From Chitinophagaceae bacterium (GTDB taxonomy: Bacteria; Bacteroidota; Bacteroidia; Chitinophagales; Chitinophagaceae), in assembly GCA_018061385.1 (NCBI GenBank), contig JAGOUF010000010.1, positions 1 through 16,630 of the forward strand: 16,630 nt of DNA, in the 5' to 3' direction. This document shows positions 1,830 through 16,630 of the stretch, piece after piece. The notes beneath the pieces are model-generated. The model saw only the letters and a list, made by a program, of their open reading frames with translations, searched no databases and had not been told where the DNA came from. Position 1 is the stretch's first letter, and every line of letters begins with the position of its first letter. The position numbers were made by a program, and so were the translations under genes.

Positions 1830-4800
1830 CTATTCTACTATAACAATTTTGTTAATTGTATTATTTCCATTACTTATTTGCATGTTATAAGAACCAGCTG
1901 CAATCTTTTTACTTAATGTAATAGATTGAGTTGAGCTACCTCCGTTATGATTGATAGTTTTATTTGCAACTTCTTGGCCAATGTTATTAAAGAGTCTAAT
2001 AGTGTAAGTACCCTTTTCAACATTACTCATTTGTAAACTAACTACTTTCCCTTTTACCGGATTTGGATAAACTGTAAATTCAGCATCTTTACTTCCAATA
2101 TTCACTTTTACAATATTGCTGTACTTAGTTACACCATTTTTCTCAGTTGATTTTATGCGATAGTAATTGTTACCATTTACAATATTTCCATCGAACCATG
2201 AATAAGAGTTGGTTGCTTCATTTTTAGATTGTACTGTTATTGCTTTTTCGAAGCTATTGCCATTTGTACCTTTCTCTATCGTATAACTTTCCATATTTTG
2301 TTCATTAGCTGTAGTCCAACTTACTTGAATACCATCATTTTTTTGAGCAGCTGTTACATTTAAGAAGGTTGACGGAAGTGCAGTGTTTGTTTTCATGATT
2401 AACTCAAACCTATTTTCGCCTAAAGTTGCAGGTGTTGAAGGGTCTACATTAAAGCTATACGATACACCTACTAATAATTGAGTAGTTATATTTAAGTATT
2501 TATCTTTTAAATAAACCTCTTCTGTTAAACCAAAATCTTCTACAACTATTTTGAAACTATTTGCAGTTGTTGCTGTGAAACCCAATGGAATAACTTTATT
2601 CTCAGCAAATGGTCTTGTATCTAAACTTTGCTTTTTGTTATCGGCACTGATTGCATACATGTTCACTTCTGGATTCAATAATTTAGTTCCATCCATTACT
2701 TCTTGACTATCGCTTGAGTTACTATTGAATCGTACAAACATATTATCTACTGGATAATTATTGTACAACACTTTTAATTCTATTAAGCCAGATAATGTTG
2801 TAGTATTTCTAAATAAGTTAGCTGTTTGTGTTGTTTGCTTATCTGCCTCTACAAAATTAATTGTAGTGGCTGAAGTAGGGTTAACTACAAAAGCACCACT
2901 CATAGCCAAGTTGTAAGCACCACCACCAATAATTTTTGTAATATAAGAACCTGCAGAAACTCCACCATTGGCATCCCAAACCCAGTATTGAGTTCCAATA
3001 TTGCTAGTTGAATTTAATCTACTTCCTAAATTAATTGGAGAAGGATATGGATTAGATACAACACTGTAACCTGTAGGAATTGCTATGTTTTGATTATTCA
3101 TATTTACAACCCCATCCATATCTAATGTTACTGCATTAGGTGTAGGATTTGCACCAGTTAAAGTTGTTGGTTGATTTCTATCGCCCCTTACCAACAATCT
3201 TATACCACGGTATTGAGTCCAATTGGCATTGCTAACTGATGTAAATGGAGTCCATGTTTGGTTGGCACTATTATCAAACCAAAATGCCGATGGATTATTG
3301 GTACTTGTTGCATCAAAACCATTGGCAGTACCACCTGCTCCTGTAACATAAATATCATCTATTAAGCTATTCATACTTAAAGCATTGCTAAAAGGATGAC
3401 CTATGAAACGTGAAGTACGACGACCACCTGGTATATAACGTTGTACAGTAACATTTCCTGAAATATACGTTCCAGTACCTGCTGCAATTCTTGCAGTAGT
3501 AGTTGCATTACTGGATAGTGTTAAAAAGTTATTGGTTGCTAAAGTGCCAGATGTTGGTGTAACAACGTCACTAACAGTTAATGCACCATTTAGCGACACA
3601 CCTGCTTCATTGTTAATGGTTAAACCTTTAATGCTGTTGTCTGTAAAAGTTGAAGCTGCAATTTGCTGAGGAGTATTACCATTATAAGCAATTGTACCAG
3701 CAGTAGAAGTTAACATTCCACTATTAAACAAATTACCTGCTATGCTTAATGTATTCGTGTTGATTAGTGAAGCACTTGTTTGTACTTGACCATTGTAGAA
3801 ACCTTGTGCTGTGGTTACAGATACAGGCAAATTACTAGCACCTGTTGGTATTACAATATTATCGTTTGTTGTAGGAGTTGTGCCTAAATCCCAATTGGTT
3901 GCTGTTGCATAATTGTTATTGATAGCACCAAGCCATGTATTCCATGCTGTACTAGCAATCCAGTTGCTTGTTGCCCCTGTTAATGCAAAGTTGTTTAATG
4001 TTCCATTATTTGCATTGGAAGTTTTATCGTTCAATACAGTTATTCCAGTATTACTACCTCCAGAAACTCCTTCATTAAAATTATAGTAAGCCATTAAACC
4101 TGCAGAAGCTGGATTAATAAAGTTGTACATATTTGTTTGAATATCTTCTTTTGATCTAACCATATTCCAAATACGAACTTCTTCAAGAGACCCCCAAAAA
4201 CTATAAGTACTATTTCCTGTAGCATCTTGCGGTGTACCTAGGTATAAATCTAGTGTATTAGAAACCGGTACTGCAACTGTACTATAAGTAGTATCTAAAT
4301 TGCCATTTATATAAAGTGAAACTGCAGAAGTTGATGCGTTATAAACTCCAGCTACATGTATCCATTTATTTTGAGGTAATTGGCTAATGCCTCTATAAGT
4401 TCTATTGCCAAATCTTAAGCCTAATTTATTATCGGCAAATAACCAAAAAGAATATCCATTGGCAGAAGTAAAATTATCTTTACCAATAATACAGTCGTCT
4501 GTTCCTAATGAACTTCTATACACCATTGCTTCAAGAGATAGAGAACCTGTAATATTCAAATTAGCATTATTTCCACAATTTACATAGTCGTTCGTTCCAT
4601 CAAAATTCAAAGCATTTCCAATTGTAGCCGTAAAAGTTCCATCAATTATAAAATCATCTATCGATAAATTTTGAGTTCCAGTACCACTATTGATTGCATA
4701 CACCTCAATACTTACAGTTCCAGTTAAGAATAAAGGTGTGTTGCCAGATAATGTAACACCTGGGCAAGCACTTAATACAGAAGCAGAACTTGCATAAGTT

Positions 4801-7800
4801 GTTCCATTTACTTTCACACCATATCCACCGTTATTAATAGTACTATTTTGTTTGAAAGAAATTCCTGTAAGATTTAATCTATAACCACTTGCTACATTTA
4901 ATGATAGTGTTAAAGATCTTGTGCTACCTAAATTTGGAACAGCAACAGAGAGCTTGCCATTACCACTACAATTGGTAATAGAAGTTGTGCCAGAGCCTGT
5001 CCATTGTGGGCTGCCAACAGTTAAGTTGCTAGCCAATACATCTGGTACTGTATTATAATCGCTACCCGAAACTGAGCCTGAATTAAATTGGTGAAAATAA
5101 ACTGCCGAAGTGGTCAATGTTCCATTTAAAATAAAATCATCAATAGCAAAATTTTGTGCATTAGAACCACTATTGACTGCCGATATTACAATGGTTACTG
5201 TACCTGTTAAACTTAGTGGTGTATTTTGTGTAACTGCTATTCCAGGGCAAGCATTTAATACACTAGCACTACTGTAATATGGATTTCCATTTACAGTAAT
5301 AGCAAAGCCACCATTATTAATGGTACTAATAAACTTTGTAGAAATACCTGTAAGGTTAAAAGTGTATGCTGATGCAACATTTAATGTTAATGTAAGTGTT
5401 CTTGTACTACCAAGATTTGGAACATTAACAGCCAAACTATTGCTACCATTACAATTGGTAATAGAAGTGGTACCGGAGCCAGTCCATTGAGTAGAACCTA
5501 CCAATAAACCAGTAGCAATAATATCTGGTGCTGTATTATACTCACTTGCTGAAACTGAACCAGTATTGAAAGAATGATAGTAAACTGTATTTGTACTTAC
5601 CGCCCTTGTAACAGTAATTGTGTATGTTTTTATGGTTGTACCATCTTGTGCAGTAACCTTAACATCTATTGTATTAGAACCAACATTTAAAGACAATGCT
5701 GCTGATGCCGAACCACTATTTACAGTTGAATAGCCCCCGTTGTTTACTTGAACTTGAATGGTAGCATTTGCATCGGACTTAGTTGGTGTTACTGTTACAC
5801 TTGTTATGGCATTAGTAACACTTGCCGTATAAGCGGTTGTTGCAGCATCGAAAGTTGGAGATATTGTACCCGCTGTAGTGGTTAATGCTGACAAATCTGC
5901 ATTAGCACTTGCTGCCCTCATAACTGTTATAGTATATGTTTTAACGGTTGTACCATCCTGTGCAGTAACCTTAACATCTATTGTATTTGAACCAACATTT
6001 AAAGACAATGCTGCTGATGCTGAACCACTAGTTACAGTTGAATAGCCCCCATTGTTTACTTGAACTTGAATGGTTGCATTAGCATCAGCTTTGTTTGGCG
6101 TTACAGTTACACTTGAAGTAGCATTAGTAACACTTGCTGTATAGGCGGTTGTTGCAGCATCGAAAATTGGTGTAATTGCACCAGCAGTTGTAGACAGTGT
6201 AGAAAGATTGGCATTGGTAGAAGGAATTGGGTAATATGCCAATTGCGATGCTTCCATACTTTGCCTATCTGTTGTATTTAACTCTGTAGAATAACTAATT
6301 ACTTCACTTATATATCCATTTAGTGGCTCTGAATATGCACCTTCTGTACCAAGATTTATTTTTCCTGGAAGACCTTTGTTGTTAGCACTTGTTTGAGATA
6401 CTCCATTTCTAAAAGATGTACAAGAATTACTTGTTGGTTGAGTAACTGTAAAATATTCTACCAATGTAGTAGACCATGGCGTTGAGATTTGGTGATTCCA
6501 ATTTCCAGCAAACCAACTATGTTGGTTGCCATATGGGCCCACCAACCAATTGCTTGAACCTTGTATTGCTCTTCTTAATGCGTTACTATTGGCATTACTA
6601 CCAGCTACTAAGTTTACAGTTATTGGATTGCTATTTAAATAAGTAGCTCCAGAGTAAATCATGCCATCATCACTACCATCTAAATATAATGTGGGCTTGC
6701 CATTTCTTCTATACATTATTCCAGCGTTTACAATACCAGGTTGCTTACTACTAGTAACTTCTGTTAGGTTTCTTGTATTGCCAGACTGATCGTACCAGAT
6801 TGTAACAAAACCATTTCCACTACCTACAAATGTTTTAAGTGCTGTTGTGTCCAAATCTCCATTTGCTGTAAACCCTATATTTTGAGTGGAGTTGTCTGAA
6901 CTTCTTCTTACTTCTATGGCAGCACCTGTATAATCAGAATTCAACTTTCTTAAACTATAGGCAGAAGCTGCTTGGGTAGAAGTGATACCTATATTATTTA
7001 AAAAGGTTAATGTCGTAGCAGTAATTGTAGACGAATATCCACCTTGCCCTGTAACACTTGTTTTATCTGCTTGTACTCTATAATAATAAGTTGTGCCTGC
7101 TGTTAAACTAGTTACAGACTGAGATGTTCCTGCAACACTCAAACCATTATATCCACTAACAAAAGATGAAAAAGTTGATGAGGTAGATACATCTAACAAA
7201 TAATTGGTTACTGTACCTACTGTTGGTGCAGTCCAGTTTGCTGTAAAACTTGTATTTGCAATATTTGTAGCTGTTGTAGTTGTTGGTATTACCATTGCAT
7301 AACTTTCTACCCAATTACTAGTTGCCCCTGTTAATGCAAAGTTGTTTAAGGTCCCATTGTTTGCATTTGAAGTTTGGTCTGCCAAAGTAGTAAGACCAGT
7401 ATTTGTTGCACCTGGTAATCCATTGTCAAAATTATAATATGCAAATAAACCTGAAGTAGATGAGCTAATAGTATTGAACATATTAGCCTGTATTTCGGCT
7501 TGTGTACGTGTTACATTCCATAATCTAAACTCGTCAATACTTCCTTTAAAATAATATTCGTTAGAAGCTCTTTTGCCAATGCAAAAAGGATTTGCATTTG
7601 TAGTTAATGCCGTACTGACTGAGCCAGATGTTACTGTATAAGCTCTGTCAACACCATTTATATATACTTTTAAAACGCTTGTACTTGGGTCGTGTACATA
7701 AGCAATATGTGTCCACTTATTTACTTGTAACGCATTTGCCACATCAATGTAAACATTGGGTCTAGGTAAAATCCTAAGATAATTTGCACCAAGACCACCA

Positions 7801-10127
7801 GTATGCATTTCTAAAACCTCTGATCCAGCTCCAAGTCCTTTGCTATATATAAACTGTACATCTGATGCAGAGTTTGGTGTCCAATAAACCCATGTTTCAA
7901 TAGTTACTTTATTAACACCAAAACCAGCAACCGATGGAATGCTCACATTATCATTTACAGCATCAAAATTTAATGCATTTCCAGGGGGGGTATATGAAGT
8001 TGTTGTAGTTATAGATGATGAATATCCACCTTGCCCTGTAACACTTGTTTTATCGGCTCTTACTCTATAATAATATGTTGTACCTGATGATAAACTAGTT
8101 ACAGATTGTGAAGTTCCTGCAACACTTAAACCATTATAGCCACTTACAAAAGAGGCAAAGGTTGATGAAGTAGAAACATCTAATAAATAATTGGTTACTG
8201 TACCAACTATTGGTGCTGCCCAATTGGCTGTAAAACTAGTAGTAACAATACTTGTAGCAGCTGTAGCTGTTGGTACAACCATTGCATAACTTTCTACCCA
8301 ATTACTGGTTGTACCGGTTAATGCAAAGTTCTTTAATAAACCATTATTTGCATCTCCACCTACGTCATTCAATGCATAATAAGCAGCATTTGAACCTGCT
8401 GCTGTGCCATTATAAAACTTATAATAAGCCACTAAACCTGTATTGGTACAACCTAAAATATTTTTATTATTGGTAGATATTTCTGTAGATGTTCGTGCAG
8501 TATTCCAAATTCTTACTTCATCAATCATTCCATTAAAATATCTGCCATTAAAATCGGATCCAATTCTTAATTCATCTGTATTAACAGCTGTTGTAATTCC
8601 TGTTCCTGTTAAAGTTTGTGCAACACCGTTTACATATAAACTACGTGTGCCACCACTTTTAGTAGCTGCAATATGGTACCATTTTCCGGCTTGCAAAATG
8701 CCATCTACAGTTTCCATACCATCAAAACCTATTCCAGAGAAAGTTCCAGAACTTCCTAAACGTAACAAGTACCCATTTGACCCAACAGTTTGATATTTAC
8801 TAACAATACCAGCAAGTGCAGTAAAGCTAGAAACATTGATCCAAGCTTCAATTGTATAATTGGTTGTAATATCTAAATTATTCGCATCAGGTATTGATAT
8901 ATAGTCATTAACGCCATCAAATTTTAAAGCATTGCCAGGGGCATTTTTTACATTTGCTAAACTTAAATCGTTTAGATATACTAATGAAAGATTGGTACTA
9001 GTACCTGATCTTGACATACAAAAAATATCTAATTTTCCATCTCCAGAAAGTTCACCCAATATTGCACCATGTGGTGCAGCATTTACTGTATAAGGTTGTA
9101 CTGCTAAACCACATCCATTGTTAATTAAAATACTGGTAGGTGTAACAGATCCATTACTTATAACTGCATCAATATATCCATCGCCATTTAGGTCGCCAAA
9201 GTCTACTGATGCTCCAACTATTGTAGAAGTGTAAAAAGTTGTACCAAAAGTACCACTACCATTGTTTAGAAAAACTCTTACACCTACTCCATTATACGGA
9301 CTCCATGTTATTAAATCTAAATCTCCATCTTTATCCCAATCATTTAATACTACTTTGAAACTATAGGTACCTGTATGTGTTTGAAAAGTAAATACGCCAC
9401 TTGCATTTTTAAATACTTGTACAGCGTTATCAAATCCCCCAATAACTACATCTTTATCTCCATCTGCATCAATATCTGCAATATCTATAGAGTTGTTGTT
9501 AGTGCTTGCCGAAACAAAGCCAGTAGAATAAGTAAAAGCAGCATTACCAGTTGTGCCTGTATTTAACCAAACTTCATTAAAAGCATTTGCTCCATTTGAA
9601 CTATTGGCCCAAATAATATCGTTTTTACCATCGTTGTTTATGTCTGTTATTTTTATAGCCGCAATTGTTCCGCCTGCGTTCTGTTTTATGAGTAAACTGC
9701 CTAATTGAGAGAAAGTGCCAGATCCATTGTTAATATAAACTCTACCGTTTGTACATACAATATCTATATCGCCATCATTATCTAAATCGCCGGTTTCAAT
9801 GGCTTGATTGGTAACAGGTATTAACTCAGTAAAAGTATTTGCAAAAGTACCATTACCATTATTTTTATAAAGTCTATAATTACCACCAACGCCATCAAAA
9901 TTAGCTATATCATTATCGCCATCATTATCAAAGTCGGCAATTCTTGCATTACTTGTAAAGTCGCTTGTTAACCCAATACTTGATGATAATGTGAAGCTGT
10001 TTGTTTGAGCAAAACCCATTATTGACAATAACATAAAAAACACAATATAAAAAGTTGCTTTTCGCAACTGAATTGCCGTTTTTTTGTTGTTAATCTTGCT
10101 TAAGTGAGAATGAAACTGATAAAACAT
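1830..10127 (-). CDS. Giant multidomain T9SS-secreted adhesin-like protein (FG-GAP/LamG/FN3/cadherin-like)
   Basis: This 2765-aa protein (from ATG at 10127) is probably exported by Sec, passed through the type IX system and attached to or released from the cell surface. Approximate residue order: signal peptide ending GFA|Q (40/41); seven FG-GAP/VCBS calcium-loop repeats of DxDxDGxxD type (65-385), enough for a beta-propeller; LamG (395-610); FN3 (614-712); LamG (714-942); FN3 (946-1037); a GH54 arabinofuranosidase-like concanavalin module with AYSLRKL and WYDQSG (1044-1295); two cadherin-like beta-sandwich repeats (1302-1505); two copies of an unassigned domain (1510-1836); LamG (1835-2059); a beta-rich stretch starting near W-x-G-x-N-x-NW-D (2061-2580); an FN3-like domain (2584-2680); and the T9SS type A sorting domain starting FTVYPNPV (2685-2765). 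The content suggests glycan binding and adhesion rather than catalysis. An in-frame GTG at 10145 would add six residues. The ATG follows the A/T-rich leader typical of the phylum and is preferred. Confidence 0.9.
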   Translation of the reverse strand: MFYQFHSHLSKINNKKTAIQLRKATFYIVFFMLLSIMGFAQTNSFTLSSSIGLTSDFTSNARIADFDNDGDNDIANFDGVGGNYRLYKNNGNGTFANTFTELIPVTNQAIETGDLDNDGDIDIVCTNGRVYINNGSGTFSQLGSLLIKQNAGGTIAAIKITDINNDGKNDIIWANSSNGANAFNEVWLNTGTTGNAAFTYSTGFVSASTNNNSIDIADIDADGDKDVVIGGFDNAVQVFKNASGVFTFQTHTGTYSFKVVLNDWDKDGDLDLITWSPYNGVGVRVFLNNGSGTFGTTFYTSTIVGASVDFGDLNGDGYIDAVISNGSVTPTSILINNGCGLAVQPYTVNAAPHGAILGELSGDGKLDIFCMSRSGTSTNLSLVYLNDLSLANVKNAPGNALKFDGVNDYISIPDANNLDITTNYTIEAWINVSSFTALAGIVSKYQTVGSNGYLLRLGSSGTFSGIGFDGMETVDGILQAGKWYHIAATKSGGTRSLYVNGVAQTLTGTGITTAVNTDELRIGSDFNGRYFNGMIDEVRIWNTARTSTEISTNNKNILGCTNTGLVAYYKFYNGTAAGSNAAYYALNDVGGDANNGLLKNFALTGTTSNWVESYAMVVPTATAATSIVTTSFTANWAAPIVGTVTNYLLDVSTSSTFASFVSGYNGLSVAGTSQSVTSLSSGTTYYYRVRADKTSVTGQGGYSSSITTTTSYTPPGNALNFDAVNDNVSIPSVAGFGVNKVTIETWVYWTPNSASDVQFIYSKGLGAGSEVLEMHTGGLGANYLRILPRPNVYIDVANALQVNKWTHIAYVHDPSTSVLKVYINGVDRAYTVTSGSVSTALTTNANPFCIGKRASNEYYFKGSIDEFRLWNVTRTQAEIQANMFNTISSSTSGLFAYYNFDNGLPGATNTGLTTLADQTSNANNGTLNNFALTGATSNWVESYAMVIPTTTTATNIANTSFTANWTAPTVGTVTNYLLDVSTSSTFSSFVSGYNGLSVAGTSQSVTSLTAGTTYYYRVQADKTSVTGQGGYSSTITATTLTFLNNIGITSTQAASAYSLRKLNSDYTGAAIEVRRSSDNSTQNIGFTANGDLDTTALKTFVGSGNGFVTIWYDQSGNTRNLTEVTSSKQPGIVNAGIMYRRNGKPTLYLDGSDDGMIYSGATYLNSNPITVNLVAGSNANSNALRRAIQGSSNWLVGPYGNQHSWFAGNWNHQISTPWSTTLVEYFTVTQPTSNSCTSFRNGVSQTSANNKGLPGKINLGTEGAYSEPLNGYISEVISYSTELNTTDRQSMEASQLAYYPIPSTNANLSTLSTTAGAITPIFDAATTAYTASVTNATSSVTVTPNKADANATIQVQVNNGGYSTVTSGSASAALSLNVGSNTIDVKVTAQDGTTVKTYTITVMRAASANADLSALTTTAGTISPTFDAATTAYTASVTNAITSVTVTPTKSDANATIQVQVNNGGYSTVNSGSASAALSLNVGSNTIDVKVTAQDGTTIKTYTITVTRAVSTNTVYYHSFNTGSVSASEYNTAPDIIATGLLVGSTQWTGSGTTSITNCNGSNSLAVNVPNLGSTRTLTLTLNVASAYTFNLTGISTKFISTINNGGFAITVNGNPYYSSASVLNACPGIAVTQNTPLSLTGTVTIVISAVNSGSNAQNFAIDDFILNGTLTTSAVYFHQFNSGSVSGSDYNTVPDVLASNLTVGSPQWTGSGTTSITNCSGNGKLSVAVPNLGSTRSLTLSLNVASGYRLNLTGISFKQNSTINNGGYGVKVNGTTYASSASVLSACPGVTLSGNTPLFLTGTVSIEVYAINSGTGTQNLSIDDFIIDGTFTATIGNALNFDGTNDYVNCGNNANLNITGSLSLEAMVYRSSLGTDDCIIGKDNFTSANGYSFWLFADNKLGLRFGNRTYRGISQLPQNKWIHVAGVYNASTSAVSLYINGNLDTTYSTVAVPVSNTLDLYLGTPQDATGNSTYSFWGSLEEVRIWNMVRSKEDIQTNMYNFINPASAGLMAYYNFNEGVSGGSNTGITVLNDKTSNANNGTLNNFALTGATSNWIASTAWNTWLGAINNNYATATNWDLGTTPTTNDNIVIPTGASNLPVSVTTAQGFYNGQVQTSASLINTNTLSIAGNLFNSGMLTSTAGTIAYNGNTPQQIAASTFTDNSIKGLTINNEAGVSLNGALTVSDVVTPTSGTLATNNFLTLSSNATTTARIAAGTGTYISGNVTVQRYIPGGRRTSRFIGHPFSNALSMNSLIDDIYVTGAGGTANGFDATSTNNPSAFWFDNSANQTWTPFTSVSNANWTQYRGIRLLVRGDRNQPTTLTGANPTPNAVTLDMDGVVNMNNQNIAIPTGYSVVSNPYPSPINLGSRLNSTSNIGTQYWVWDANGGVSAGSYITKIIGGGAYNLAMSGAFVVNPTSATTINFVEADKQTTQTANLFRNTTTLSGLIELKVLYNNYPVDNMFVRFNSNSSDSQEVMDGTKLLNPEVNMYAISADNKKQSLDTRPFAENKVIPLGFTATTANSFKIVVEDFGLTEEVYLKDKYLNITTQLLVGVSYSFNVDPSTPATLGENRFELIMKTNTALPSTFLNVTAAQKNDGIQVSWTTANEQNMESYTIEKGTNGNSFEKAITVQSKNEATNSYSWFDGNIVNGNNYYRIKSTEKNGVTKYSNIVKVNIGSKDAEFTVYPNPVKGKVVSLQMSNVEKGTYTIRLFNNIGQEVANKTINHNGGSSTQSITLSKKIAAGSYNMQISNGNNTINKIVIVE
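4615..5600 (-). repeat. Two tandem copies of a ~490-bp coding module
   Basis: The segments about 4615-5104 and 5105-5600 encode two ~160-aa units of the giant protein that align end to end. Shared landmarks include VYxHxFNxGSVS, QWTGSGTTSITNC, VPNLGSTR, SASVLxACPG and IDDFIxxGT. Each copy carries two conserved Cys, a possible disulfide. The units look like jelly-roll or beta-sandwich carbohydrate-binding-type folds, but I cannot assign a named family. Confidence 0.85.
5605..6222 (-). repeat. Two near-identical cadherin-like beta-sandwich repeats
   Basis: The units at about 5605-5920 and 5921-6222 each encode about 100 aa with TTAG-x-I-x-P-x-FDAATTAYTA, DANATIQVQVNNGGYST and DGTTxKTYTITV. This is the pattern of the cadherin-like beta-sandwich (PF12733-type) domain. 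By eye the two proteins differ at roughly 14 of about 101 positions. Long stretches of DNA are identical, which points to a recent tandem duplication or gene conversion. Confidence 0.85.
7010..8290 (-). repeat. Duplicated LamG-tail plus FN3 module
   Basis: The FN3 segments at about 7010-7292 and 7992-8285 encode almost the same domain, sharing NYLLDVSTSSTF, SGYNGLSVAGTSQSVTSL and DKTSVTGQGGYSS. In both cases the domain is preceded by the same LamG tail (LTGxTSNWVESYAM). The LamG tail alone recurs near 3950-4010 before a different domain. The pattern indicates duplication of a LamG-FN3 block during growth of the gene. Confidence 0.8.
7984..7990 (-). repeat. Seven-base C homopolymer in coding strand
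   Basis: Seven consecutive G on the plus strand (C on the coding strand) encode Pro-Pro at the FN3/LamG2 junction (SYTPPGNAL). It stands out in an AT-rich gene. The paralogous junction near 8937-8940 has only four G. The frame is intact here. Confidence 0.7.
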
Positions 10128-10303
10128 AATGGTTAATTTTGCCACAAACTATTTTAGGTAGTTTAAACTATTTAGTTACATGTCCTCAAAAAGGTTTTTT
10201 TTGTCCATAAAAAACATATCTATGACTTTTTTTTCATTAAAACACCCTTACTTGCAATTGTTTTAATAAAAGTTGAATACTTTACCAACCGATACTATTT
10301 TAT
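10128..10303. promoter_or_regulatory. Divergent intergenic region with palindrome and direct repeats
   Basis: This region separates the divergent giant gene and the response regulator and must hold both promoters. AAACTATTT occurs at 10146-10154 and again at 10165-10173, 19 bp apart. A perfect 12-bp palindrome TAGTTTAAACTA lies at 10159-10170. Two direct repeats about two helical turns apart resemble the layout of LytTR-type operator sites, and the neighbouring regulator has that DNA-binding domain. For the regulator, TTG (10258-10260) and TACTTTAC (10278-10285) weakly resemble the Bacteroidota -33/-7 elements. The assignment is by inspection only. Confidence 0.4.
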
Positions 10304-13373: not shown

Positions 13374-14336
13374 CTAAATTACATTTCCAACTAACTTCCA
13401 AAATTTCATTAAAGCATCAAACTCTTGCACAAGTTTATAAAAACTATTGCTCACTTTATAAAATTTACCTTTCATTTCATCCAATTCAGAAAAGCTAAAA
13501 ATTTCAAATGTACCCAATCCTTTTGCTTTAGACAACAAGATCGCTTCATGCCTACTTTTCACTTTTTCATCTATTAACATAAACTTCTCTTTTACTCTTG
13601 AAAAAGGTATCTTTTCTAAAACCATTTCAATTGGTGGTTCTTTAATGAAGGTTAATATTTCTCTTACTTCCAACACTTTAAATAAATCATTAGAGAATAA
13701 TGACAAAGGCAAAAATGAAATTTCATTTTTTGTTGTATGAGTTTTTAATAGATACCAATTTTCACTATAATTTTTTATTCCCCCTAAATCGTCAATTATC
13801 CAATGGTATTTATTTAAAAGTAAAATATCAAACTCCAAAAAAAATATCATATTCTCTCTTTCATCAGCATTAAAAAAATTAAGAACACAATAGTCAGTTT
13901 TAAATTGAGTAGGCCTAAACCCTTTCAAAATCTCTAGTTTTTGTTGTAAATTAATTTCATGGAAATTGATTTTTTTGTTGAATACTGCTGATATTTTTTC
14001 AACGTACCTTTTCCTGTTGATTTCAATATATTTTTCTAACTCATGAATTCGCAATTGAGCCTTTATTGCAAAAGGCAGAAAATCATTTATCTTGTAAGAA
14101 TTATTGTTTAAAATTTCGAAGAACTTCGCTTTTGCTTCATTAGAGGATGTTGAAACGGTGTATTTATTTTTTTGAGGGTATTCATAACCATATCTAACAT
14201 CTTGCTTGGATTTAATGGGTATAGATTCCTCTTTTGGTTTTGCCTTTTCTGCTTTCAGTTTTATTCTTTCATTTACGATTTGTTGCTTCGCCGATTCTCT
14301 TAACAGCTTATTGATTAAAGAAAAAAAACTGGTCAT
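13374..14336 (-). CDS. Hypothetical protein, 320 aa, no recognised family
   Basis: I do not recognise this protein. It has no signal peptide or clear membrane span and should be cytoplasmic. Residues about 15-65 are rich in Lys/Glu/Pro (for example KAEKAKPKEESIPIK), probably a flexible or helical linker. The rest looks globular and helical, rich in aromatic residues and Lys, with segments such as RIHELEKYIEINRKRYVEKI (about 95-115) and IFFLEFDILLLNKYHWIIDD. It contains just one Cys. The gene stands alone on the minus strand, 210 bp from the kinase and 230 bp from preA, with a hairpin beyond each flank and a repeat array downstream. This isolation and lack of a familiar fold fit an accessory or lineage-specific gene. 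The reading frame is long, uninterrupted and has the same A/T-rich codon use as its neighbours, so it is probably a real gene. Confidence 0.7.
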   Translation of the reverse strand: MTSFFSLINKLLRESAKQQIVNERIKLKAEKAKPKEESIPIKSKQDVRYGYEYPQKNKYTVSTSSNEAKAKFFEILNNNSYKINDFLPFAIKAQLRIHELEKYIEINRKRYVEKISAVFNKKINFHEINLQQKLEILKGFRPTQFKTDYCVLNFFNADERENMIFFLEFDILLLNKYHWIIDDLGGIKNYSENWYLLKTHTTKNEISFLPLSLFSNDLFKVLEVREILTFIKEPPIEMVLEKIPFSRVKEKFMLIDEKVKSRHEAILLSKAKGLGTFEIFSFSELDEMKGKFYKVSNSFYKLVQEFDALMKFWKLVGNVI

Positions 14337-14566
14337 CTATTGTAAATATTGTTTGTTATATATTTTATTCTTACTCAAGAAAAAGCCATCGATAAAAGCC
14401 AAATTTATATTCTTCATTTGAATGGAGCGACGCCACTGAAGTTTCATTTATGTTCTACTGTTTGTTACATAAAAAATTCTACATCTAACAACATACTTCG
14501 ACAAGATTAGTACGACATTTCGGTTATGATAAATTCAACATTTAGAATTTATCATTCAAAATAATT
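14337..14566. other. Intergenic region between preA and hypothetical gene
   Basis: This 230-bp AT-rich stretch has no open frame that looks coding. Apart from the hairpin at 14526-14555 next to preA, I see no repeat, RNA or clear promoter in it. It must hold the promoter of the 320-aa gene. Confidence 0.5.
14526..14555 (-). terminator. Perfect 11-bp hairpin after preA
   Basis: Arms ATGATAAATTC (14526-14536) and its complement (14545-14555) flank an 8-nt loop. The hairpin starts 11 nt after the preA stop and would end the preT-preA transcript. The stem is A/T-rich, so its strength as a terminator is moderate. Confidence 0.65.
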
Positions 14567-15835
14567 CTAATGATTGTTCAAAGGTAAACCTTGCTCTTGC
14601 CACTGTTTCCAATTGATGTATTCTGGAGCAACACGATGTTCTTCCATAGTAATACAACTGTCTACTGGACAAACCAACTTGCATAAATTGCAGCCTACAC
14701 AATCGTCTTCTTTAATGGTGTATGTGTTGTAGGGATTGCCTTTGGCGATATTGATGGATTGATGTGATGTGTCTTCGCAAGCAATATAACATAGGCCACA
14801 GTGAATACATTTATCTTGATTGATTTTTGCAATGTGGTGATAGTTGATATCCAAATCTTCCCAATGGGTAATTTTATCTACACTTTTGCCAATAAAATCG
14901 TTGATGGTTTTATAACCTTTTTCATCCATCCAATTGTTGAGGCCTTCACACATGTCTTCTACAATTCTAAAGCCATGCGTCATGGCTGCTGTACAAACTT
15001 GTACAGTGGTGCTACCAAGTAACATAAACTCAACAGCATCTTTCCAGGTACTAACACCACCAATTCCACTAATTGGAACTTTGCTAGTTAAATCGTCTTG
15101 TGCAAGCGTAGTCAGCATTTTTAATGCAATGGGTTTTACTGCAGGACCACAATAACCACCAAAAACACTTTTACCAGCTACATAAGGATTTGGCACAAGC
15201 GTATCTAAATCGATGCCTGTAACACTTTGAATTGTATTGATTAAACTGAGTGCATTGGTGCCACCTTCAACTGCTGCACGACCTGTGGGCACCACGCTAT
15301 GTACGTTTGGTGTAAGCTTGGTAATAACAGGAATGGTGGCTTTTTCCATTACCCATTCCACCACCATTTTTGCAATGTGTGGATCTTGACCAACAGCAGC
15401 ACCCATGCCACGTTCTGTCATGCCATGTGGGCAACCAAAGTTGAGTTCAAAACCCATGGCTCCTGCATCTTCACATTTTTTAATGAGTTCGTGCCAAGAT
15501 TTTCTATCATTGTCGGCCATTAAAGAAACAATCATTGCTCTATCAGGAAATAGTTTTACAACTTCTGTAATTTCTTTGAGGTTAATGTCAAGTGGTCGAT
15601 CACTAATTAATTCAATGTTGTTGAAACCCATCATGCGATGTCCACCATAACCAACTGAAGAATATCTACTAGACACATTCTTTACCTGACTGCCCAAGGT
15701 TTTCCACACAACCCCACCCCAGCCTGCTTCATAGGCACGAAGTACATTGATTTTTTTATCTGTTGGTGGGGCACTTGCTAACCAAAAAGGGTTAGGTGAT
15801 TTTATACCAAGAAAATTTGCTGATATATTTGCCAT
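14567..15835 (-). CDS. preA: NAD-dependent dihydropyrimidine dehydrogenase, subunit PreA
   Basis: This 422-aa protein is the catalytic subunit of the two-subunit dihydropyrimidine dehydrogenase, which reduces uracil and thymine to the 5,6-dihydro forms in the first step of reductive pyrimidine catabolism. The FMN-binding TIM barrel (about 1-330) starts with the typical NPFWLASAPPT segment. It contains ELNFGCPHGMTERGMG (130-144), where Cys135 corresponds to the catalytic cysteine of the family. The C-terminal ferredoxin module has two 4Fe-4S sites: Cys343/346/349/353 and Cys379/382/385/389. The start at 15835 is chosen because MANISANFLGIKSPNPF matches the family's beginning. The frame stays open upstream to 15919, but that stretch only reads through the flanking inverted repeat (peptide TIRAIRAFVAN) and into the GxxExxY gene. 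Its partner preT lies upstream on the same strand but is separated by the GxxExxY unit. Confidence 0.95.
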   Translation of the reverse strand: MANISANFLGIKSPNPFWLASAPPTDKKINVLRAYEAGWGGVVWKTLGSQVKNVSSRYSSVGYGGHRMMGFNNIELISDRPLDINLKEITEVVKLFPDRAMIVSLMADNDRKSWHELIKKCEDAGAMGFELNFGCPHGMTERGMGAAVGQDPHIAKMVVEWVMEKATIPVITKLTPNVHSVVPTGRAAVEGGTNALSLINTIQSVTGIDLDTLVPNPYVAGKSVFGGYCGPAVKPIALKMLTTLAQDDLTSKVPISGIGGVSTWKDAVEFMLLGSTTVQVCTAAMTHGFRIVEDMCEGLNNWMDEKGYKTINDFIGKSVDKITHWEDLDINYHHIAKINQDKCIHCGLCYIACEDTSHQSINIAKGNPYNTYTIKEDDCVGCNLCKLVCPVDSCITMEEHRVAPEYINWKQWQEQGLPLNNH

Positions 15836-15848
15836 AAAAATAATATTT

Positions 15849-15874
15849 GCCACGAATGCACGAATTGCACGAAT
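15849..15874. repeat. Left inverted repeat of GxxExxY unit
   Basis: On the plus strand this reads GCCACGAATGCAC then GAATTGCACGAAT. Internally it is a threefold CACGAAT array. Its reverse complement matches 16295-16321 at about 22 of 26 positions counted by hand. It sits 13 bp upstream of the preA start. Confidence 0.7.
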
Positions 15875-15878
15875 GGTA

Positions 15879-16253
15879 TTAATAGATGATTCTTTTATGT
15901 TCCATTTTGCCTCTTGCAAAATTTACAATAAGTGCAAGTCGATTATCTGAAACTTTTAAATAGTTGATTGCTTGTGATTCATGTTCATCTGATATGCTTT
16001 TCACACATTTCACTTCTAAAATAATTTTATCGAAGACCACGAAATCTGCATAGAATTTATGTTTCAATAAATTCCCTTTATAAAAAACAGGGTATTCTTT
16101 TTCTCTTTCATACACAATCCCATTTTCACTAAACTCAAATTCAAGAGCATCTTTGTATACAATTTCAGAGAAGCCATGACCTAGTTGATTGTGTACTTCC
16201 ATACACAAACCAATAATGCTGTAAGACTCTTCTTTATAGACTAATTCACTCAT
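15879..16253 (-). CDS. GxxExxY protein (PDDEXK_3-type)
   Basis: This 124-aa protein carries the motif GFSEIVY (27-33), which defines the GxxExxY family. Its length is typical for the family, about 120-130 aa. FYADFVV...ILEVK resembles the D...ExK core of the PDDEXK nuclease superfamily to which this family has been assigned. The C-terminal LALIVNFARGKMEHKRIIY is the usual family ending. The biological role of these proteins is not established; they are often present in many copies per genome. No signal peptide is seen. The gene lies between preT (52 bp upstream) and preA (43 bp downstream) on the same strand, bounded by inverted repeats. It is likely transcribed with the operon, since I see no independent promoter in the short upstream gap. 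The family assignment is secure, while nuclease activity is only an inference. Confidence 0.93.
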   Translation of the reverse strand: MSELVYKEESYSIIGLCMEVHNQLGHGFSEIVYKDALEFEFSENGIVYEREKEYPVFYKGNLLKHKFYADFVVFDKIILEVKCVKSISDEHESQAINYLKVSDNRLALIVNFARGKMEHKRIIY

Positions 16254-16294
16254 AAATTATTTTTACTACGTGTACTCAATGGCACTAACAAAAT

Positions 16295-16321
16295 ATTCGT
16301 GTTCATTAGTGCATTGGTGGC
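16295..16321. repeat. Right inverted repeat of GxxExxY unit, overlapping the preT end
   Basis: The reverse complement reads GCCACCAATGCAC then TAATGAACACGAAT, a degenerate version of the left repeat. It contains the last codons and the stop (16306-16308) of preT. It has diverged more from the CACGAAT unit than the left copy has. Confidence 0.6.
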
Positions 16322-16630
16322 ATTATATATTTCAGAATTGCGTTTGCTCCATCTTTACCAGCTTGCACTGCATCTACAACTTCACGTCCACCATTTACAC
16401 AATCACCACCTGCAAATACACCATTGATATTGGTGGCAGTTTTTTCTTTCACTGACACTTTACCATTTTTGTTTTCTAGTTCATTGTTGTTGACTAATTC
16501 CGAGAAAGGCATTTGTCCCGCTGCTTTAATTACCATATCTACATCTAATGTAATGGTTTCACCTGTTGCCATAGGACTTCTTCTTCCACTTGCATCTGGT
16601 TCGCCTAACTTCATGGTATCACAAATGAGC
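16306..16630 (-). CDS. preT: NAD(P)-dependent oxidoreductase subunit PreT, C-terminal part
   Basis: The frame is open to the right edge of the window, so only about 107 C-terminal residues are visible. The segment ICDTMKLGEPDASGRRSP, then DVDMVIKAAGQ and NGVFAGGDCVNGGREVVDAVQAGKDGANAI, is the end of the GltD-like FAD/NADH oxidoreductase fold of PreT. GGDC contacts the FAD. PreT carries electrons from NADH through flavin and iron-sulfur centres to PreA. Its usual partner preA is on the same strand about 470 bp downstream, beyond the GxxExxY unit. The last residues, MPPMH and the stop, are encoded inside the right inverted repeat, so the original C terminus may have been replaced by a few residues. 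All conserved positions visible here are intact, so the protein is probably functional. Confidence 0.9.
   Translation of the reverse strand, partial: LICDTMKLGEPDASGRRSPMATGETITLDVDMVIKAAGQMPFSELVNNNELENKNGKVSVKEKTATNINGVFAGGDCVNGGREVVDAVQAGKDGANAILKYIMPPMH

Follow-up and report, generated by a model that had tools for sequence, protein, structure and literature searches.

A GxxExxY nuclease gene between inverted repeat arrays, a probable minimal mobile element of Bacteroidota

Why does a small GxxExxY gene sit inside the preT-preA operon, framed by repeats that face one another? The question is raised by one end of the 16,630-nucleotide stretch analyzed here (the window; contig C454 of a Chitinophagaceae genome assembled to 2.84 Mb in 516 contigs and 80% complete), where a minus-strand operon reads preT-GxxExxY-preA. 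A reading made from the sequence alone had taken the interruption for a minimal cassette resembling miniature inverted-repeat transposable elements (MITEs), and its description of the locus stands: the unit measures 473 bp, it splits preT from preA with all three genes co-oriented (confirmed by NF006183 for preA and by the preT 3' end), and the imperfect inverted arms around the gene, counted there as 22 matches in 26 positions, align with 22 identities in 27 columns and one gap. We think it probable that this unit is a minimal mobile element, composed of an inverted array, a single GxxExxY nuclease gene and a second inverted array, with a population like that of REPINs (repetitive extragenic palindromic [REP] doublets forming hairpins). 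The features of the locus, some of them traced by comparison with Chitinophagaceae bacterium CW01, are as follows.

14567..15835, minus strand: preA (NF006183, 649 bits), with its ATG at 15835 just past the downstream arm
15849..15874, plus strand: downstream arm, three inward-reading CACGAAT units, an inverted match to the other arm, with a counterpart in CW01
15879..16253, minus strand: GxxExxY gene, 124 aa, predicted Cas4/RecB-like PD-(D/E)XK nuclease (TIGR04256, PF13366)
16266..16288, no strand assigned: probable decayed inner arm, from by-eye comparison with CW01
16295..16321, minus strand: upstream arm, array CACCAAT, CACTAAT, CACGAAT, a zero-mismatch pattern match in its own genome
16306..16629, minus strand: 3' end of preT, a NAD-dependent dihydropyrimidine dehydrogenase subunit, from synteny and similarity to the CW01 protein

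The arms read GCCACGAATGCACGAATTGCACGAAT (15849-15874, plus strand) and GCCACCAATGCACTAATGAACACGAAT (16295-16321, minus strand), and a local alignment of the two 200-nt flanks gives a score of 17, which was reached by 2 of 5000 dinucleotide shuffles. The CW01 stretch matching 16266..16288 is a recognizable array, which by eye completes the upstream arm as a hairpin. Because the preT stop codon (16306-16308) is contained in the upstream arm, it was probably the end of preT itself that the element entered; the predicted tail of the protein is ILKYI-MPPMH here and ILNFIF in the relatives G009 and G003. Contig C428 of the same genome breaks off inside preT after its 5' part (tblastn query 1-389) and is therefore probably the neighbor of the window contig, and a lone arm of the window type stands directly ahead of the preT start on it.

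Relatives differ at this junction: it is empty in some, while others have one or another unrelated small gene there, in most cases at the preT stop or a few codons from it. Matches to preA at 81% identity or more were found in 16 genomes, the window's own counted, of which G060 and G046, showing no preT next to preA, were set aside; the comparison covers 14 genomes with the order nitrilase-preT-preA, own included, and CW01 (L109) as a fifteenth, with six more distant preA matches (55-59%) lying outside it. A GxxExxY gene with CACNAAT arms is found at the junction in the window's genome and CW01 only, with proteins 81% identical, and since the copy is common to both at the same site it is not a fresh insertion. 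Elsewhere the junction holds a GxxExxY gene with GCAAAG-type arms (G007) or a remnant of such (G008), a GxxExxY gene with CGCAAAG/CGCCAAG arms (G035), four-helix-bundle genes of TIGR02436 (G009 and G003; L226 and L229), or a 70-aa open reading frame (ORF) together with an ORF named by eye as nucleotidyltransferase-like (G042). No cassette gene is present in G002, G006, G013, G024, G037, G015 and G043, and other short repeats are seen by eye in G006 and G013. The sequence-only reading had reasoned that a cassette would be contradicted by relatives that lack the gene and still carry both repeats at the same sites; this is not what is seen, as 7 of the 14 relatives with the operon (13 of the compared genomes and CW01) lack both the gene and, by eye, these arms.

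Are such arms a general companion of GxxExxY genes? The window's genome has eight intact GxxExxY genes and two broken ones. At L003 and L005-L008 the flanks are inverted and unlike the window arms in sequence, so that the arms are not one common repeat, and at L001 and L002 no inverted flanks were found at the first threshold. The host-genome search that had been proposed for the window arms did recover the pattern, at up to three mismatches, in 7 places (reversed-pattern control, 0), though one of these is the upstream arm of the window's element and none of the other six shares a contig with a GxxExxY match. We considered whether these arm-only contigs refute the cassette idea, an objection that was dropped when the two flanks of every gene were set side by side. 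With an inverted-flank score of at least 18 as the threshold, 23 of 36 usable loci from the window's genome and its relatives (37 collected) and 49 of 77 usable named loci (80 collected) have inverted flanks, with mispaired controls at 5% and 16%; the direct orientation reaches this score at 14 and 7 loci, respectively, and flanks displaced by 400 or 800 nt do so at 0-1. Orthology accounts for the raised control value of the named set: 62 of its 80 fetched loci are one orthologous site, and counting every named homologue separately was abandoned on that ground.

We added 29 further Bacteroidota loci and eight plasmid-borne ones (four of the latter from other phyla), dropped L054, L061, L115 and L116, which have no open frame with the motif, and reduced 150 loci to 81 clusters and, after merging, to 77 sites, of which 68 had full flanks and 9 were dropped; site-level counts supersede locus-level ones where both exist. 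An inward-reading pair of CRCNRAK units stands upstream at 43 of the 68 sites (opposite orientation, 14), downstream at 37 (opposite, 11) and in both arms at 34, compared with 0-2 at positions 0.8 kb away. Inverted arms are frequent around other GxxExxY genes; they differ in sequence from those of the window and tend to be clade-specific. By mechanical ORF calls, with sites that have short neighbors dropped, the upstream neighbor is on the strand of the element at 54 sites (opposite at 7, uncalled at 7) and the downstream neighbor at 51 (opposite at 12, uncalled at 5), with both neighbors on the same strand at 42.

The unit of the arms is CRCNRAK, repeated with linkers of 1-3 nt, the first unit usually being preceded by C. 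At the two R positions and K, the arms of one locus agree with frequencies of 0.90, 0.86 and 0.98, compared with 0.52, 0.49 and 0.55 between loci, while the disagreement at N within and between same-type loci (locus-level figures, 88 loci) is 0.34 and 0.37 in the first unit and 0.44 and 0.59 in the second. Because R and K are conserved between arms and N is not, this pattern points to sequence recognition more than base pairing as the constraint on the arms; pairing as the chief constraint is not favored, N being about as variable within as between loci. A second arm class, GTCTGAA...GGATT, accompanies a separate protein clade that includes three genes of the window's genome, and, judged from such comparisons, each protein clade tends toward an array version of its own.

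The enclosed protein scores 137.7 bits against TIGR04256 (cut-off 35) and 126.7 bits against PF13366, PDDEXK_3 (cut-off 22), and across 55 aligned sequences G27-E30-Y33, D70, E80-x-K82 and Q94 are invariant. Its AlphaFold2 model (predicted local distance difference test score of 95.3) has as best fold match SSO0001 (4ic1), which we take to be a Cas4, followed by a named Cas4, lambda exonuclease, AddAB and Holliday-junction resolvases. Both the fold and the catalytic E, D, ExK and Q of Cas4/RecB-like PD-(D/E)XK nucleases are found in the predicted protein, and it is as a nuclease of this kind that GxxExxY is predicted from the model. Residues such as 10, 87 and 89 track arm type, but this signal is inseparable from phylogeny. 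The family is found above cut-off in 73 of 148 sampled Bacteroidota genomes. In the accessible portions of the literature searched, GxxExxY is hardly described, its name being mentioned in passing, and the arm repeat strings turn up in an unrelated context only; PDDEXK_3 has no mention in the literature searched. An anti-phage defense family was rejected, as PADLOC gave no match for GxxExxY up to E 0.01, and carriage by phages or plasmids was rejected on protein matches at E 1e-3 to 0 of 50,697 phage records and 8 of 72,556 plasmid records.

Whether gene and arms move together can be asked at the junction between tsaC and cca, where filled, empty and decayed alleles make the mechanism directly testable. 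Arms were typed at 62 tsaC-cca loci of Flavobacteriaceae (59 typed per arm, 3 untyped each). The right-arm type requires 6 changes on the GxxExxY tree versus 18 on the tsaC+cca tree, and the left-arm type 9 versus 16; at equal host distance, type is shared in 0.43-0.59 of close-nuclease pairs versus 0.08-0.13 of distant ones, and for the GxxExxY data the tree of the flanking genes is rejected, the difference being 1128 log units. This supports the view that gene and arms behave as one unit, in which arm type follows the nuclease and not the flanking genes, and to this extent the minimal cassette is borne out, with gene and arms traveling together, although the window copy itself is no fresh insertion. 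A wider search covered 149 genomes with a tsaC match, taken to be of the genus Flavobacterium from matches up to 98% identical to F. orientale, and some of them are also among the 62 loci. At 90 of these the junction was examined, of which 71 were scored and 19 were not: the gene is present at 28, two as fragments (L288 and L330), and cca stands beside tsaC without the gene at 43, seven with a spacer of 4-15 nt. L289 and L305 have, on one side only, an arm of a different type beyond the limits of the present element, inner and outer arms are mixed at L281 and L343, and L306 retains by eye an apparently decayed lone arm. The occupancy patterns support a history in which sites were gained and lost and in which a gene with its own arms repeatedly entered the same co-directional spacer. 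Many gene-free tsaC-cca spacers contain, by eye, gene-less inverted pairs of other arrays; such unrelated arrays (L260-L346) include AGTTTNN, GAAAATTT, TTGNCAAT and a TCATTTCGACGAAGGAGAAATC hairpin, as if several small-element families use this spacer.

Arms without a gene make up a dispersed population. In each of twelve Flavobacterium genomes, CCRCNRATTCRCNRATT occurs, with one mismatch allowed, at 11-78 sites (reversed pattern, 0-4), and in G272, a single contig, none of the 20 regions chosen because they contain paired hits falls within an ORF of at least 100 aa, with 16 of 20 pairs spanning 40-48 bp and the inspected pairs about 44 bp. In 71 genomes, with the element's own arms subtracted, exact CGCNGAT-type sites are commoner in carriers of CGCNGAT-armed genes (p 8e-6) and exact CGCNAAT-type sites in CGCNAAT carriers (p 1e-4), values that are optimistic because the genomes are related. 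The type of the gene-less pairs thus appears to match, as a tendency, the arms of the resident nuclease.

How such an element might move can be sketched from these patterns. The nuclease would recognize the CRCNRAK array of its own clade and cut at the arrays or at the hairpin that they form, and host repair or replication would then install a copy in a new spacer. Pairs without a gene would be non-autonomous copies mobilized in trans, by analogy with the proposed mobilization of REPINs by RAYT (REP-associated tyrosine transposase) enzymes. The element may persist mainly where it has inserted in the sense direction of an operon, in the gap between one gene's stop codon and the next gene's start; the window copy would have landed at the last codons of preT, so that an arm now supplies the preT stop codon. 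The stronger proposition, that GxxExxY elements are autonomous, a Cas4-like nuclease in about 0.45 kb moving itself and the gene-less hairpins without a DDE, HUH, serine or tyrosine recombinase, we put forward tentatively, as a possibility that we hold to be somewhat doubtful; nucleases of this type are not known to move elements alone. If it were true, arrays and nuclease specificity would co-diverge, and some of the short-repeat hairpins scattered through the intergenic DNA of Bacteroidota would be explained. Cognate inverted arrays in any case give GxxExxY a plausible job and a tie to the intergenic hairpin population, and they offer a very small, testable mobile system.

Several observations weigh against a mobile element of this kind. 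Its DNA-cutting and mobilizing role is one that we infer, and neither a target-site duplication nor an exact boundary was found by eye between filled and empty alleles at tsaC-cca or preT-preA, where the junctions have diverged too far to be matched exactly. A strict unit pair in both arms is missing at 34 of 68 sites, about half; 20 of the 68 also score at least 18 in direct orientation, since some flanks hold both orientations. Clear inverted arms occur at only two of the eight plasmid-borne loci, in Bacteroides finegoldii after radA (score 24) and in Bernardetia after ade (score 20), the other six (Treponema, Gemmatirosa, Fusobacteria, Persicobacter, Sphingomonas and Prevotella) scoring 8-15; among these, the plasmid of Fusobacteria bacterium ZRK30 (L220) has a long similar stretch in both flanks in direct orientation, and the Gemmatirosa locus has by eye a hairpin array downstream. 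The greater likeness of the second-unit N within loci (0.44 compared with 0.59) means that pairing or conversion between the arms could contribute. The broad association of protein clade with arm is inflated by orthologous rows, and among 57 diverse typed loci the nearest relative has the same fine type in 33, with a mean of 17.5 and a maximum of 35 after shuffling. The flanking genes disagree with one another as well, the tsaC data rejecting the cca tree by 241 log units and the cca data rejecting the tsaC tree by 549, though this is less than the conflict of GxxExxY with its flanks. Among the gene-less copies, a longer repeat, of about 139 bp, encloses 6 of the 20 inspected G272 pairs, which may therefore owe part of their copy number to another element; 4 of 10 CGCNGAT carriers hold more CGCNAAT than CGCNGAT sites; G252, with CACNAAT arms, holds 32 CGCNAAT sites; and nine non-carriers, scored as such at tsaC-cca only, have more than three array sites. 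The MITE likeness of the earlier proposal holds for the short inverted ends and for the multiple gene-less copies dispersed in intergenic DNA, numerous in Flavobacterium, but no target-site duplication was seen by eye, and the form with a gene codes for a nuclease, without any recognized transposase.

An unlikely but serious alternative is that the arrays are moved by a transposase of the host, such as a REP-associated Y1 enzyme or one from an insertion sequence, and that GxxExxY is merely enclosed as a passive passenger. REPIN palindromes carry a GTAG tag, from which the CRCNRAK arrays differ in not being tagged palindromes. The overall architecture does resemble that of REPINs as set out in the accessible text of PMC3116915, in its many gene-less, hairpin-forming, extragenic inverted doublets and in a protein gene specific to the repeat group, while it is unlike them in that the gene here is a PD-(D/E)XK nuclease and not a Y1 HUH transposase. 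By this analogy REPIN/RAYT is the closest working analogue, sharing the gene-less doublets and not the Y1 transposase, and membership in it fails because the enclosed gene is PF13366 and because ten of the 41 genomes that have GxxExxY show no Y1_Tnp match. Among 59 genomes, the window's own and its relatives, Y1_Tnp turns up in 41; it is somewhat commoner where GxxExxY is present (31 of 41) than where it is absent (10 of 18). The positive genomes lacking a match (G003, G004, G007, G020, G030, G032, G050, G054, G064 and G068) count against a passenger, although lost transposases or those of other families could have acted and the assemblies of G020 and G068 are 72% and 83% complete. That arm type tracks the nuclease tree, and that gene-less copies tend to match the type of the resident nuclease, also speak against a mere passenger. 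What makes this rival serious is that four-helix-bundle genes, unrelated to GxxExxY, stand between inverted arrays too, with 14 of 29 loci scoring at least 18 (mispaired flanks, 2.5%), which would imply machinery common to several small-gene cassettes; at these loci (L079-L108, G009 and G003; TIGR02436) the arrays have units of about 7 nt, of the AGTTNTA and GGTTTCA kinds.

Classical homing, in which the nuclease cuts the empty allele of one conserved site and the element passes from strain to strain through homologous repair and not by transposition, we regard as quite improbable. Homing endonuclease genes are single small nuclease genes that repeatedly occupy one conserved site and spread horizontally, and the element shares all of this: tsaC-cca has been repeatedly occupied by diverged nucleases, in strong incongruence with the flanking genes. 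It differs in having inverted arrays, elements at 77 different sites and dispersed gene-less derivatives, and a clear rise of co-conversion toward the insert was not seen in the flanking codons of tsaC or cca. The host-corrected partial correlations are 0.03 for the last 20 tsaC codons and 0.18, 0.14 and 0.12 for the first three 20-codon windows of cca, compared with -0.06 to 0.19 further away, and are thus low everywhere, with the first cca windows at the high end.

Very improbable, in our judgment, is an intervening element acting at the RNA level like the intervening sequences (IVSs) of 23S ribosomal RNA (rRNA), with the arm stem removed from messenger RNA by RNase III so that the insertion is hidden. 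The gene-in-stem anatomy of IVSs with the S23 protein is similar, 54 of 68 elements are in sense with the upstream gene, and four-helix genes occur at this same preT-preA junction in G009 and G003. However, complementarity of the arms is not clearly maintained at the free position of the unit, the constraint being on the CRCNRAK sequence; a known RNA family was rejected because Rfam gave no match up to E 1 within 14300-16630 of the window; and RNA processing would leave movement unexplained, though it could coexist with it. The accessible text of PMC4990558 on the 23S rRNA IVS with S23 describes a likewise short, selfish element with a small ORF, and four-helix genes occur at the junction in sister species, whereas the element here lies in a protein operon and not in rRNA, encodes another protein family and has arms built of sequence units. 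Vertical inheritance without mobility, with arms homogenized by gene conversion and many losses, we consider scarcely credible, for although 62 of the 80 fetched named homologues are at one orthologous site, the window copy is shared with CW01 and both arms are of the same type at 48 of 62 loci, it is opposed by the 6 versus 18 changes and the tree rejection, by differing arm types beside or around one another at tsaC-cca, and by differing cassettes at the same preT-preA junction within one genus.

Short heptamer arrays in intergenic DNA are also known from the TAACTGA repeats, reported in five Bacteroidetes with a proposed translational role (PMC4679880), which are direct repeats of one fixed heptamer; the accessible part of that report makes no mention of a nuclease gene between inverted arrays. 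In Sphingomonas parapaucimobilis, an 880-kb replicon has a GxxExxY gene between fabD and fabG, a conserved operon (L222), where only the left array is evident; the corresponding stretch of S. paeninsulae is about 440 bp shorter, the annotation table there listing fabD only. The repeat of about 139 bp around a CGCAGAT hairpin occurs in at least seven places in G272 (L381, L386, L391, L394, L397, L400 and L371) and is possibly another family that received the hairpin once. In the window's own genome, a four-helix-bundle gene with one internal TGA (C428:15261-15581; L093) lies upstream of the operon's nitrilase. Within the window, the minus strand encodes at 1830-10145 a 2771-aa protein with Laminin_G_3, FG-GAP, Cadherin-like and Por_Secre_tail domains, which appears to be a large, secreted, adhesin-like protein, and at 13374-14336 a 320-aa ORF that has no match in Pfam, NCBIfam or PADLOC. 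Finally, the 15-mer CTTCAGTGGCGTCGC recurs, on either strand, at 14397-14450 of the window and in the nitrilase-preT spacers of G002 (L227) and CW01, and by eye it is another dispersed repeat, intergenic in different species.
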